A stretch of 64,000 nucleotides of DNA from Paraburkholderia phytofirmans PsJN (lineage in GTDB: Bacteria; Pseudomonadota; Gammaproteobacteria; Burkholderiales; Burkholderiaceae): contig NC_010681.1 in assembly GCF_000020125.1 (NCBI RefSeq), positions 3,720,001 to 3,784,000 of the forward strand, given 5' to 3'. Both the position numbers and the translations under genes were made by a program. Below the pieces are notes generated by a model. The model had not been told where the DNA came from, ran no database searches, and was given only the letters and a program-made list of their open reading frames with translations. Positions 23,739-55,521 of this stretch are shown here, one piece after another. Position 1 is the first letter of the stretch, and each line of letters opens with the position of its first letter.

Positions 23739-23874
23739 CGCAAAAGTTGGGCGAGAAACGTTTCAGGGCATTGCAAACAGACAAAGACGCGCCGTTGAAC
23801 GCCGCGCAAAGCGACGCTCGCGCACCGCCTCGACCTGCAAGCGGCGCCACGGAAACGAACATGACTATCTGCAC

Positions 23875-24050
23875 ATCTTCTTCCATCCGGACTCTAACCG
23901 TCGGCCCTGGCTTCTCACCAGATCTGCTGACCCCACTTCAGTCTTTCCTGTTTCGAAGACCGTACGACGTGGGCGCTCGCGGGCTCGCCGGCTCACGCTT
24001 TCGCGTTGCCGGCATACCGCCGGTGGGGAATTTCGCCCCGCCCTGAAGAC
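23875..24050 (-). ncRNA. FMN riboswitch (RFN element) controlling ribB
   Basis: Read on the minus strand, the conserved RFN blocks appear in order: TTCAGGGCGGGGCGAAATTC, then CCCCACCGGCGGT, a variable hairpin, AGCCCGCGAGCG, GTCAGCAGATCTGGTG, and the 3' block AGTCCGGATGGAAGAAGAT. It ends about 137 nt before the ribB start, so the expression platform lies in that leader. FMN binding should lower ribB expression. The motif match was made by eye. Confidence 0.93.
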
Positions 24051-24173
24051 GCACTGATTGCCGGATCGACCGGCTAGCAAAGCATACAACAGCCGCGCCG
24101 CACGTGCAGCGCAACCCTACTGATCAGACGGAGATCTCTCGCTCGGAGCACATGCGTCCGCAAAAGATGCCGA

Positions 24174-51890: not shown

Positions 51891-52094
51891 TCGAACTCTC
51901 CAAAAAGCTTCTAACCGCTATTGTAGGGCTGATCTCGATATCGTGCCGAAGCCCACAAAATCAATAGGTTCTTACTGAGAATCAGTGAACGGCACGTTCT
52001 GCCGCCGCCAGCCCGACTAAGCATGATGCATCGCCGCGCTGGTGACGAATTCGCTGCGCCAGCACCGCACCGCGCAAAACCGCGAACCCATGAA

Positions 52095-52128
52095 AAAAGC
52101 CGCCTTCGCGAAAGCGTTGGCGGCTTTT
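52095..52128 (-). terminator. Terminator of the rplM-rpsI operon
   Basis: Read on the minus strand, AAAAGCCGCC / GGCGGCTTTT is a 10-bp stem with a 14-nt loop. A run of T follows (AAAAAA on the plus strand). It lies 41 bp past the rpsI stop. Confidence 0.88.
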
Positions 52129-52168
52129 GCAGCGCACCGGCCCGAAAGCCGGTTTGCACCCGAAACGA

Positions 52169-52561
52169 TTAACGCTTCGAGAATTGCTTCCGGCGACGTG
52201 CCTTGTGGAAACCGACCTTCTTACGTTCCACTTCACGTGCGTCACGCGTAACGAAGCCAGCCTTCGACAGTTCCGGCTTCAGCGTTGCGTCGTAGTCCAT
52301 CAGCGCGCGCGTGATGCCGTGGCGAACCGCACCGGCTTGACCCGTTTCACCGCCACCCGTCACGTTGACCTTGATGTCGAACGTAACGCCGTGGTTCGTG
52401 AGTTCCAGCGGCTGACGCACGATCATCAGCGACGTTTCGCGCGAGAAGTAATCGGCGATAGGCTTGCCGTTCACAACGATATCGCCCTTGCCTGCCTTGA
52501 TGAAGACGCGTGCGACGGCGCTCTTGCGGCGGCCCGTGCCGTAATTCCAGTTACCGATCAT
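52169..52561 (-). CDS. rpsI: 30S ribosomal protein S9
   Basis: 130 aa. Signatures are [19 protein letters not shown] near the N-terminus, [19 protein letters not shown], and the basic C-terminal tail ending QFSKR, which contacts P-site tRNA. It is the second gene of the rplM-rpsI operon, 11 bp from rplM. Confidence 0.98.
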
Positions 52562-52572
52562 GTGGGCTCCCC

Positions 52573-53001
52573 TTAGATCTCGAGCGCTTTCGGCTGTTGT
52601 GCCGAATGCGGATGCGTTGCTTCAGCGTAGACCTTCAGCTTCTTGATCATCGCGTAGCCGAGCGGGCCCTTCGGCAGCATGCCCTTGACCGCTTTCTCGA
52701 GCGCACGGCCCGGGAAGCGTTCTTGCATCTTGCCGAACGTCGTTTCATAGATACCGCCCGGGTAGCCCGAGTGACGGTAGTACTTCTTGTCAGTAGCCTT
52801 GTTGCCCGTGACGCGCAACTTACCCGCGTTGATAACGATGATGAAATCACCGGTGTCGACGTGCGGAGTGAATTCAGGCTTGTGCTTGCCGCGAAGACGG
52901 TGTGCCACTTCGCTGGCGACACGCCCGAGAACCTTATCCGTCGCGTCAATCACGTACCATTCACGCGTAACCTCATGGGCTTTTGCGGAAAACGTCTTCA
53001 T
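52573..53001 (-). CDS. rplM: 50S ribosomal protein L13
   Basis: 142 aa. Conserved blocks [48 protein letters not shown] and [20 protein letters not shown]. Begins the rplM-rpsI operon. Its promoter is at 53123-53152. In E. coli the L13 mRNA autoregulates; I saw no clear leader structure here. Confidence 0.98.
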
Positions 53002-53122
53002 GATCGATCCAAAAAAATTGCTGCGCCCAATGTGTTTGTTCCTGCTTGTAGTGTGCGCATCGAGGCGCGTGCAGGCTCTCCCTGGTTCTTCCTCCGCGGG
53101 CGCGGATGCGGAAAAGCCTTGA

Positions 53123-53152
53123 ATTATAATGGAATTTGCTACGGCAAGTCAA
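53123..53152 (-). promoter_or_regulatory. Sigma70 promoter of rplM-rpsI
   Basis: On the minus strand TTGACT (53152-53147), an 18-bp spacer, then a perfect TATAAT (53128-53123), about 120 nt before the rplM start. It lies downstream of the sRNA terminator, so the two transcripts are separated. Confidence 0.8.
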
Positions 53153-53258
53153 AACGTACAGGAGTGAGCGCGAGATTCCGCTGGAATCTGGTAGCTGGAA
53201 GCGTAATTTAGCGAGCTATCCGGCTCTAACCGGCTGTGCGTCGCGCAGGACGCGGGCG

Positions 53259-53318
53259 AAAAAAAACCCGAACGAGCGGTTCGGGTTTAATCCACCAAAG
53301 GAGGAGGTGGAGGAGACA
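53259..53318 (-). ncRNA. Predicted ~60-nt double-hairpin sRNA with an anti-Shine-Dalgarno loop
   Basis: The transcript starts about 7 nt after the -10 at 53330-53325. The first hairpin is a 6-bp stem, UCCACC / GGUGGA, with the 9-nt loop UCCUCCUUU, which is fully complementary to a strong SD (AAAGGAGGA). The second is the terminator: 10 bp AAACCCGAAC / GUUCGGGUUU, then eight U (53266-53259). No ORF fits. It is on the rplM strand but precedes the rplM promoter. A trans-acting translation repressor is my inference; expression is not shown. Confidence 0.65.
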
Positions 53319-53324
53319 AAAACG

Positions 53325-53353
53325 ATTATATGAGCCGACCTTGTGCGACGCAA
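53325..53353 (-). promoter_or_regulatory. Promoter of the predicted sRNA
   Basis: On the minus strand TTGCGT (53353-53348), exactly 17 bp, then a perfect TATAAT (53330-53325), about 7 nt before the predicted sRNA. The optimum spacing and perfect -10 make it a likely strong promoter. Confidence 0.7.
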
Positions 53354-53651
53354 GAACATTTGCAATGCGAAATGCGATTTCATAATGTGGCAGCGTAGTT
53401 TTTTGGCTAGAATTTTCTAAATTTTCTTTGAAATCAAGCGCCAAGCGAGAACCGCACGGCCATATCCATAGAGACGAACTAGAGTAAAACCCCTAAATCT
53501 GCTAGGGCATTCCCGAATCGGCTGGACATGCCGCGGCGCAACACGCAAGCCGTCATCCGGCATAACTTGGGGCAAAAGTCGCCTCGGGCAGACACGCAAA
53601 CGCCGGGCTACAATGCCCTCTCGATAAGGCAAAAGCGCGGTGGAGCACAGC

Positions 53652-54074
53652 ATGGAATGCAAAGTGACCTGGATGGGACAGGACGGGATGGCGTTCGCAG
53701 CCGAGACGGGCAGCGGCCACCTGGTGGCAATGGACGGCGCGCCTGAAGGTGGCGGCCGCAACCTCGCGCCGCGTCCGATGGAAATGGTTTTGCTCGGCAC
53801 GGGCGGCTGCACCGCCTACGACGTCGTGATGATCCTGAAGAAAAGCCGTCAGGAAATCAGCGATTGCTCGGTGACACTGAAGGCCGAGCGCGCCAGCGAA
53901 GACCCGAAAGTGTTCACCAAGATCCACTTTCACTTCACCGTGACGGGCAAGAATCTGAACCCGGCCACCGTGGAACGCGCGATCAATCTGTCGCATGACA
54001 AATACTGCTCGGCCTCGATCATGATGGCCAAGACCGCCGAGCTGACGCACTCGTTCGACATCGTCGCGGGCTGA
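53652..54074 (+). CDS. OsmC/Ohr-family protein
   Basis: 140 aa. The conserved region GRNLAPRPMEMVLLGTGGCTAYDVVMILKKSRQ carries the first reactive Cys (GGCTAYD), and a second is in LSHDKYCSASIMM, the two cysteines of the peroxide-reducing OsmC fold. Thiol-dependent hydroperoxide detoxification, YhfA-like by sequence. GGTGGAG lies 6 nt before the ATG. A 650-bp gap before it holds the sRNA and the rplM promoter. Confidence 0.88.
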   Translation: MECKVTWMGQDGMAFAAETGSGHLVAMDGAPEGGGRNLAPRPMEMVLLGTGGCTAYDVVMILKKSRQEISDCSVTLKAERASEDPKVFTKIHFHFTVTGKNLNPATVERAINLSHDKYCSASIMMAKTAELTHSFDIVAG

Positions 54075-54141
54075 ACGCTGTCAGGCGGTCGCCGCGCGGC
54101 GCGGGCCTGAGCGCTCGCCGCCGAATGTGCGCACAAAAGAA

Positions 54142-54173
54142 AAATGCCGGCGTCCATCTGGACGCCGGCATTT
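54142..54173. terminator. Shared terminator of the OsmC gene and rnpB
   Basis: ATGCCGGCGTCCA / TGGACGCCGGCAT, extended to A/T pairs, then seven T on the plus strand and ATTTTTC on the minus strand. The converging OsmC and RNase P RNA transcripts both end here. Confidence 0.9.
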
Positions 54174-54187
54174 TTTTGTCAGGTGGC

Positions 54188-54600
<413 letters not shown>

Positions 54601-54693
54601 GGGGCGGATTTTAACACCTGCGGGAGCGGCAGGCCGGTTCTACGGGTGAAATAGCCGAATCGCCAAGGAGTCCTGCGACAAACCTCATCGCGC

Positions 54694-55521
54694 TCAACGC
54701 GCACGCCGCCCTGAGCGGAACACGGAGGTGTCGTCGTAAAACGCGGGCGAATCGTTCTCCGGCCACCAGCCCGGAACGCCCAGCACGGGCAACGGCGCGA
54801 ACATGCGGCTTGTCAGCGCATCGGTGGTCAGCAGCGCCGCCGCGACGGCCTCGTCCAGCCAAGCGTCTCGCTTCGCAGCGTCCCATTCGAAATACACGGG
54901 CGGCACTTCGACTATCCACGCATGCCCCGTGCAAGCCTTGAACGGCGCAATCAGCTTTTCCATCAGCGCATGGCCAAAACAGCGCACTTCGCAACGGCTT
55001 CCCCATGCGTCGCGCCGGGCCACGAGCAGCGTGTGCCAGTCGAATCCACGCAAAGCCGCGCTCAAAGCAGGATCAGCGCAAGCGAACAGCAATGCGTTCT
55101 CGTCAAACAAGGTTAGCGTATCGGGCACGCCGCCTCGCGTCGGACCGACGCCCAACACCTCGATGGCCGCCCACTGCCGCGCGTTCAGCGCTGCTTTGAT
55201 GCGCGGAAAGGCAAACCACATCGACGCATTGAAGAAGTCGTGCAGATTGTGGCGCGTCGGAACGCAGCCGGTCGACGCGATATGTGCTTCGTACGCCGCG
55301 CCGGGTGGCAAATCGTCCTGGGCGATAAACGCGAGGCGCTGGCCGCGCCCGGTGCTCTGCCGCATATCACCGGCGTCGGCGTTCATTTCGGCGAGCAATG
55401 CCGCGTAGCTCGTCAGGGCCGCTTGCTGCCACCGCTTGCCGCGTTCGGCAAAAGGCGCGAGCCACGGCTTGGTCCAGTCGATTGCAGCGAAACCTGGCGG
55501 CTGCGCCTCATGCGCCTGCAT
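54694..55521 (-). CDS. DUF3025-family protein
   Basis: 275 aa. The sequence, with FAAIDWTKPWLAPFAERGKRW, LHDFFNASMWFAFPRIKAALNARQ and VLGVPGWWPENDSPAFYDD, matches the uncharacterised DUF3025 group. These genes often follow pyrC in Burkholderiaceae, as here (12 bp gap). No catalytic function is known. No signal peptide or membrane segment seen. Probably co-transcribed with pyrC. Confidence 0.85.
   Translation of the reverse strand: MQAHEAQPPGFAAIDWTKPWLAPFAERGKRWQQAALTSYAALLAEMNADAGDMRQSTGRGQRLAFIAQDDLPPGAAYEAHIASTGCVPTRHNLHDFFNASMWFAFPRIKAALNARQWAAIEVLGVGPTRGGVPDTLTLFDENALLFACADPALSAALRGFDWHTLLVARRDAWGSRCEVRCFGHALMEKLIAPFKACTGHAWIVEVPPVYFEWDAAKRDAWLDEAVAAALLTTDALTSRMFAPLPVLGVPGWWPENDSPAFYDDTSVFRSGRRAR

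Follow-up and report, generated by a model that had tools for sequence, protein, structure and literature searches.

An RF02278 double-hairpin RNA gene between rplM and an OsmC-like gene, a probable ortholog of NcS27 (bdhR1) of Burkholderia cenocepacia

The window, i.e. the whole stretch of 64,000 nucleotides that was analysed, carries on its minus strand a short transcription unit between an OsmC-like gene and a gene at 52573..53001 (-) that we take to be rplM, encoding ribosomal protein L13. Read along the minus strand from 53353 to 53259, this unit consists of TTGCGT, 17 nt, TATAAT, CGTTTT and then TGTCTCCTCCACCTCCTCCTTTGGTGGATTAAACCCGAACCGCTCGTTCGGGTTTTTTTT. No tRNA or tmRNA was found at 52000-55000 of the window. 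The locus comprises the following features.

53640..54074, plus strand: OsmC-like gene, the upstream neighbour (PF02566; 92% identity to the neighbour in B. cenocepacia NCTC13227)
53340..53354, minus strand: conserved block CTTGCGTCGCACAAG over the -35 hexamer (TTGCGT, 53348-53353), with a TTGCnnnGCA core that is also seen upstream of the paralogues
53325..53330, minus strand: -10 hexamer TATAAT, read from the sequence, 6 nt ahead of TGTCTCC
53309..53318, minus strand: 5' end of the RNA, UGUCUCCUCC, made up of an unpaired tail (nt 1-7) and the start of stem 1 by predicted pairing; first anti-Shine-Dalgarno (anti-SD) module
53291..53311, minus strand: hairpin 1, UCCACC-UCCUCCUUU-GGUGGA, from fold prediction
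53297-53305, minus strand: loop of hairpin 1, UCCUCCUUU, read from the sequence; second anti-SD module
53264..53288, minus strand: hairpin 2, the stem of an intrinsic terminator, from terminator scan and fold
53259..53266, minus strand: run of eight T after the GGG of the terminator, read from the sequence
53123..53152, minus strand: promoter-like site of rplM, TTGACT-18-TATAAT, 11/12, from promoter scan
52573..53001, minus strand: rplM, the downstream neighbour, conserved in relatives

The first-pass annotation of this DNA had described a near-consensus promoter here. Its place, the 17-nt spacer and the -10 hexamer (6/6) were confirmed, but the -35 hexamer TTGCGT agrees with TTGACA at only 3/6 positions, so that our promoter scanner, which asks for at least 4/6 per hexamer, left the site unlisted. 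The TTGCnnnGCA core was found within 75 nt upstream of 61/90 rplM-linked copies of the RNA and of 50/56 other copies, the expectation from the window's own count being about 0.016 per 75 nt of one strand. This core is common to several loci and longer than a -35 hexamer. Three of the four homologues named double-hairpin RNAs share an upstream motif (PMC5688073), and the core is perhaps the shared motif mentioned in Sass 2017. The dyad in the -35 block (CTTGYRNNGCRCAAG) was considered as an operator of a wider regulon and rejected, since the genome has 8 matches to it and 18 to its reversed control; after this test only the core common to the copies remains.

The RNA specified downstream of this promoter is predicted to form two hairpins with an energy of -23.2 kcal/mol, which none of 200 dinucleotide shuffles reached (mean -10.5, z = -5.3), in keeping with the short two-hairpin minus-strand transcript proposed for this place. 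The claimed intrinsic terminator with eight U is present as well (stem 53288-53264, 8 T at the end), and the start-to-stop runs inside the unit span, by eye, at most 2-3 codons, which accords with the claim that it has no coding capacity. That rplM has a separate promoter, leaving the RNA an independent unit, is upheld by the 11/12 promoter-like site at 53152-53123. From the distance to the -10 hexamer, we infer that the 5' end should lie at 53317 or 53318. Nucleotides 1-7 of the tail are predicted to be unpaired with a probability of at least 0.99, and the predicted mean exceeds 0.8 in 97/99 distinct RNAs, the lowest being 0.35. Hairpin 1 occurs once in the window at up to 3 mismatches and in 0/100 shuffles. 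Among 26 distinct hairpin sequences from 144 copies (L004 and L005, of 146, were left out because their form does not fit), pairs 1-4 are invariant, as the selection of copies by TCCA and TGGA required, pair 5 is CG in 22, TA in 3 and TG in 1, and pair 6 is standard in 23/26, so covariation may lend weak support to hairpin 1, at one pair only.

This feature is a real sRNA gene, a copy of RF02278, Betaproteobacteria_toxic_sRNA. The Rfam search returned a match at 53258-53318 (-) with 71.7 bits against a threshold of 50 (E 1.6e-12) that covers all 64 model positions, and the predicted structure is that of the family: two hairpins, the second of which is the terminator, with a C/U-rich unpaired 5' tail and loop. 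The family owes its name to toxicity in E. coli when on a cloning vector (PMC4603805). The genome itself (8.21 Mb, 3 contigs) contains five matches, with 84.1, 75.2, 71.7, 50.0 and 49.4 bits, four of them at or over the cut-off and the last one just below. At E up to 0.001, matches were found in 58/58 genomes of a genus sample, 137/150 of a family sample and 128/200 of an order sample; over the cut-off, the corresponding numbers are 58/58, 133/150 and 75/200. None of 14 control genomes matched RF02278 in any of the genus, family and order searches. In the best-scoring copy of the genome (L001 1490-1521; G000:C3, 4431918-4431981 +), the 5' end is longer by one unit of 11 nt: TGTCTCCTCCA stands twice before TGTCTCCTCC there and once in the other listed copies of that class, a tandem duplication of the anti-SD unit.

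A relative that has been studied is NcS27 (bdhR1) of B. cenocepacia. In strain J2315, ncS27 is located at complement 3666557..3666648, is assigned to RF02278 and lies between BCAL3348a and BCAL3349 (PMC4603805), and BCAL3348 is named among the ribosomal protein genes (PMC5688073). BCAL3349 was annotated at 3666923..3667387 and its start was later re-annotated to 3666965, which puts the ncS27 3' end 408 nt from the re-annotated start of a 423-nt gene whose former start lies 42 nt upstream (PMC4603805). A pattern scan of named genomes yielded 20 loci, and the one that we examined belongs to B. cenocepacia NCTC13227 (L171). In this strain the sRNA sits between an OsmC-like gene (92% identity to that of the window) and rplM (96%), the end of its T run is 407 nt from the OsmC-like start MECKV, and the OsmC-like gene is 423 nt long with an alternative start 42 nt upstream. 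As this spacing (407/423/42) agrees within 1 nt with the published J2315 coordinates (408/423/42), NCTC13227 carries ncS27, and the same neighbours in the same orientation make the window sRNA its ortholog. The position of NcS27 between rplM and the OsmC-like gene is that of the window copy, with the J2315 side taken from published coordinates; the distance from T-run end to OsmC-like start is 393 nt in the window, unlike the 407 nt in NCTC13227. By way of NCTC13227, the locus, tail, hairpin 1 stem and terminator of NcS27 are the same as in the window copy, whereas the loop is UCCUCCUUU in the window and CUCCUCCUAA in NCTC13227. The feature is therefore already known, both as a family and as the ortholog of a studied RNA, and an apparently new anti-SD sRNA finds its place in a described family.

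Four homologues have been named double-hairpin RNAs, and other Burkholderia have three to five (PMC5688073). NcS27 was reported to be expressed, and its overexpression to slow growth (PMC5688073, PMC10987360); a review describes effects of this RNA on genes for carbohydrate transport and for the catabolism of phenylalanine and tyrosine (PMC10987360). Both ncS03 and ncS27 turn up in a transposon fitness screen (PMC12013268).

The stretch of about 1 kb ahead of rplM was searched for GTCTCCTCCA, TGGATT and a T run in the 58 genus-sample genomes (57 fetched plus the window) and in 40 genomes picked from the family sample of 150. An rplM-linked copy was found in 56/58 and 34/40 of these loci, respectively (90/98); copies farther upstream than the fetched stretch would be missed. 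In the eight loci without the pattern, a search of the fetched sequence with RF02278 at E up to 0.1 also found nothing, so the pattern hid no recognisable half-conserved copies there. Three genomes of the same genus (L035 in G034, L083 in G018 and L116 in G138) have no rplM-linked copy within about 1 kb and have family matches elsewhere. The adjacency to rplM is a conserved location and does not speak for a link between the RNA and that gene.

The loop had been expected to be conserved upstream of rplM in relatives. The exact loop UCCUCCUUU (DNA TCCTCCTTT) is kept in only 43/90 rplM-linked copies, so that this expectation fails in about half of them; a second TCCTCC is kept in 77/90 and the first base T in 89/90, and loops lacking the anti-SD core occur (CCCAAACATAGG, CCCCTTTAATGGTG and two long ones). 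The anti-SD idea holds through the 5' tail. The tail with the start of the stem, GUCUCCUCCA, is present in 90/90 rplM-linked copies, though it is part of the search pattern, and when 61 of the 63 distinct copies are aligned, without the two whose loops are long, no variation is seen in columns 2-11 (tail and stem start) or in GTGGATT, two stretches that the pattern mostly demanded. In addition, GTCTCCTCC, which was not asked for as such in the selection, is present in 57/57 Rfam-model loci, window included, a set that holds five loci of the genome itself and others taken by best score and so is biased to one class. The comparison thereby adds a detail, namely that the 5' tail is more strictly kept than the loop; judging by sequence conservation, the tail is the stricter anti-SD module and the loop a second, more variable one.

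The copies fetched from other loci share the 5' GUCUCCUCC with the window RNA. In the class seen most often among them the loop and the upper stem differ (UCCAU-GUCUCCUCC...AUGGA), with the loop repeating the tail sequence. The named RNAs of RF02278 (ncS03, ncS05 and ncS62 of J2315 and four in Herbaspirillum, PMC7011215) can be likened to the window RNA by family only, with several copies per genome in each case.

Where the window copy departs from NcS27 is at the 5' end. The ncS27 RNA of J2315 measures 92 nt and can give rise to a short form by processing (PMC5688073), whereas the short form is predicted to be the primary transcript in the window, where no leader was found; position and RNA body still match. 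In NCTC13227, 37 nt separate TATAAT and UGUCUCC, against 6 nt in the window. Among the rplM-linked copies, a -10-like hexamer is located 28-50 nt before TGTCTCC in 77/90, mostly at 34-38 nt, and exactly 6 nt before it in 3/90 (the window, L074 in G011 and L125 in G194), with no clear -10-like hexamer at either place in the other 10/90. If strict TATAAT is demanded instead, 61 have a leader, one has the hexamer at 6 nt and 28 have neither. The copies at other loci have TAnnnT 6 nt before the tail in 53/56. Many leaders hold, by eye, a small inverted repeat, GTTGCAG...CTGCAAC or GTTGTCG...CGACA. This distribution suggests that the lineage of the window deleted about 30 nt of leader. The parts of the published accounts available to us do not mention a leaderless NcS27, which may still be described elsewhere. 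On balance, it is more likely than not that the exact 5' end UGUCUCCUCC is the true family unit, reached either by cutting off a leader or by losing it so that the promoter fires right there. If so, the window copy would amount to a leader deletion made by nature: this NcS27 would begin with a 5' triphosphate and would not need processing. That a few genomes lack the leader suggests that the constraint lies on the mature 5' end.

Taking these lines of evidence together, we consider with a probability of about 0.88 that the window feature is an RF02278 double-hairpin RNA and the syntenic NcS27 ortholog, acting in trans on SD regions. From its own promoter, an RNA of about 60 nt would be made that ends at its own terminator. 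Two C/U-rich modules would let it pair with mRNAs at their SD regions, first the unpaired 5' tail UGUCUCC(UCC) and second the loop with UCCUCCUUU. Such pairing would block ribosome binding and, when nutrients are limiting, reduce the output of genes for transport and catabolism; strong overexpression would slow growth. The window copy is likely to be expressed and to act as the RNAs of its relatives do. The first-pass annotation had arrived at an SD-blocking sRNA, and in that it agrees with the published work on the family, the unit being independent and SD-complementary; what calls for revision is its choice of the loop as the singled-out module, as the tail probably outranks it. The SD-complementary loop UCCUCCUUU itself is there as described, and its core resembles the end of 16S rRNA, whose tail is GGCTGGATCACCTCCTTTCT at six places of this genome.

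By computed energies, the tail UGUCUCCUCC pairs with GGAGGAGACA at -17.7 kcal/mol and with a consensus SD at -9.4, and the loop piece CCUCCUCCUUU pairs with AAAGGAGGAGG at -18.2 kcal/mol, two letters of that piece being paired inside the stem of the folded RNA. The genome holds 16 full tail matches of the form GGAGGAGAC-N2-9-ATG and a single match to the reversed pattern. These 16 are among 259 GGAGGANNN sites in general (57 reversed), so part of the GGAGGAGAC excess is a general SD signal, and the tail-matching sites may only reflect how common SD sequences are. Two of the 16 GGAGGAGAC sites were dropped, their ORFs of 16-17 aa not being real, and Pfam searches of the remaining 14 ORFs, which for four of these covered the first 500 aa, up to the end of the fetched stretch, gave a match for 13. 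Six of the 14 match transport families (porin, periplasmic binding protein, MFS twice, amino acid permease and ABC ATPase); the other matches are to DUF485, AMP-binding (twice), GMC oxidoreductase, APH, a LysR substrate domain and HTH_20. The ORF with the LysR domain has no N-terminal domain match and so probably starts inside a gene. This list of predicted sites is compatible with the published proposal that the targets serve transport and catabolism.

Instead of pairing with particular mRNAs, the RNA could be a global decoy that imitates the 3' tail of 16S rRNA (CACCUCC-UCCUUU versus CACCUCCUUUCU), titrates strong SD sequences and so acts as a general brake on translation. Consistent with this, the 16S tails of this genome carry CACCTCCTTTCT, the loop piece pairs with the consensus SD UAAGGAGGUGA at -11.6 kcal/mol, and the family is named for its toxicity in E. 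coli (PMC4603805). However, the strictest module, UGUCUCCUCC, prefers GGAGGAGACA over the consensus SD (-17.7 versus -9.4), whether overexpression of NcS27 slowed growth depended on the substrate (review, PMC10987360), and S17S, the short form of the related RNA S17 of Bordetella pertussis, had no effect on exponential E. coli (PMC11722255), all of which leaves a decoy unlikely. In 90/98 loci examined the element precedes rplM on its strand, which would fit control of rplM in cis, as a leader or attenuator of its operon. We reject such control as highly improbable: the sRNA has its own terminator and rplM a separate 11/12 promoter-like site, the distance from sRNA start to rplM ranges from 210 to 985 nt, and copies of the same structure are found at other loci of the genome. 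A chance hairpin or plain terminator with no function in trans, of which the terminator half by itself would be an ordinary example, can be dismissed given the Rfam E value of 1.6e-12, the z of -5.3, the absence of hairpin 1 from 100 shuffles and the conservation in relatives.

The preferred reading, a trans-acting RNA with the tail as its leading module, finds a published parallel in S17, which, going by its description in a preprint (PMC11722255), is like the window RNA in the 5' end, unpaired tail and loop. S17 pairs near ribosome-binding sites (PMC11722255). It differs in having a 190-nt long form, which RNase E cuts to 67 nt (PMC11722255). S17S represses BP2158 via Site 1, at the 5' end, as shown by compensatory mutations, with slight help from Site 3; the mutations described are those of Sites 1 and 3, so they do not show that the first loop (Site 2) matters less (PMC11722255). 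Exponential E. coli BL21 was not impaired by S17S, so toxicity is not universal in the family (PMC11722255). Neisseria NmsR (RF02877) has, like the window RNA, two CU-rich unpaired stretches facing ribosome-binding sites (PMC5688073), but forms a tandem pair; membership of the window RNA in the NmsRb family (RF02877) was rejected at 30.5 bits against a cut-off of 52. Likewise, anti-hemB (RF02837) has a CCUCC loop and a terminator as in the window, from the alignment, and membership was rejected at 27.9 bits against 49.5.

The 5' UTR of rplM, at 53002-53100 (-) of the window, reads CAGGGAGAGCCTGC ... AAGCAGGA ... GGATCGATCATG and looks strongly conserved in the six loci compared and in L171. 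It could serve as a ribosomal-protein leader; the Rfam search gave nothing over threshold there. Two Rfam matches over threshold were found in the window besides RF02278, RNase P RNA class A at 54184-54597 (-) (RF00010, 285.9 bits), accompanied by a terminator-like site of 16 pairs at 54175-54140, and an FMN riboswitch at 23871-24054 (-) (RF00050, 99.9 bits).
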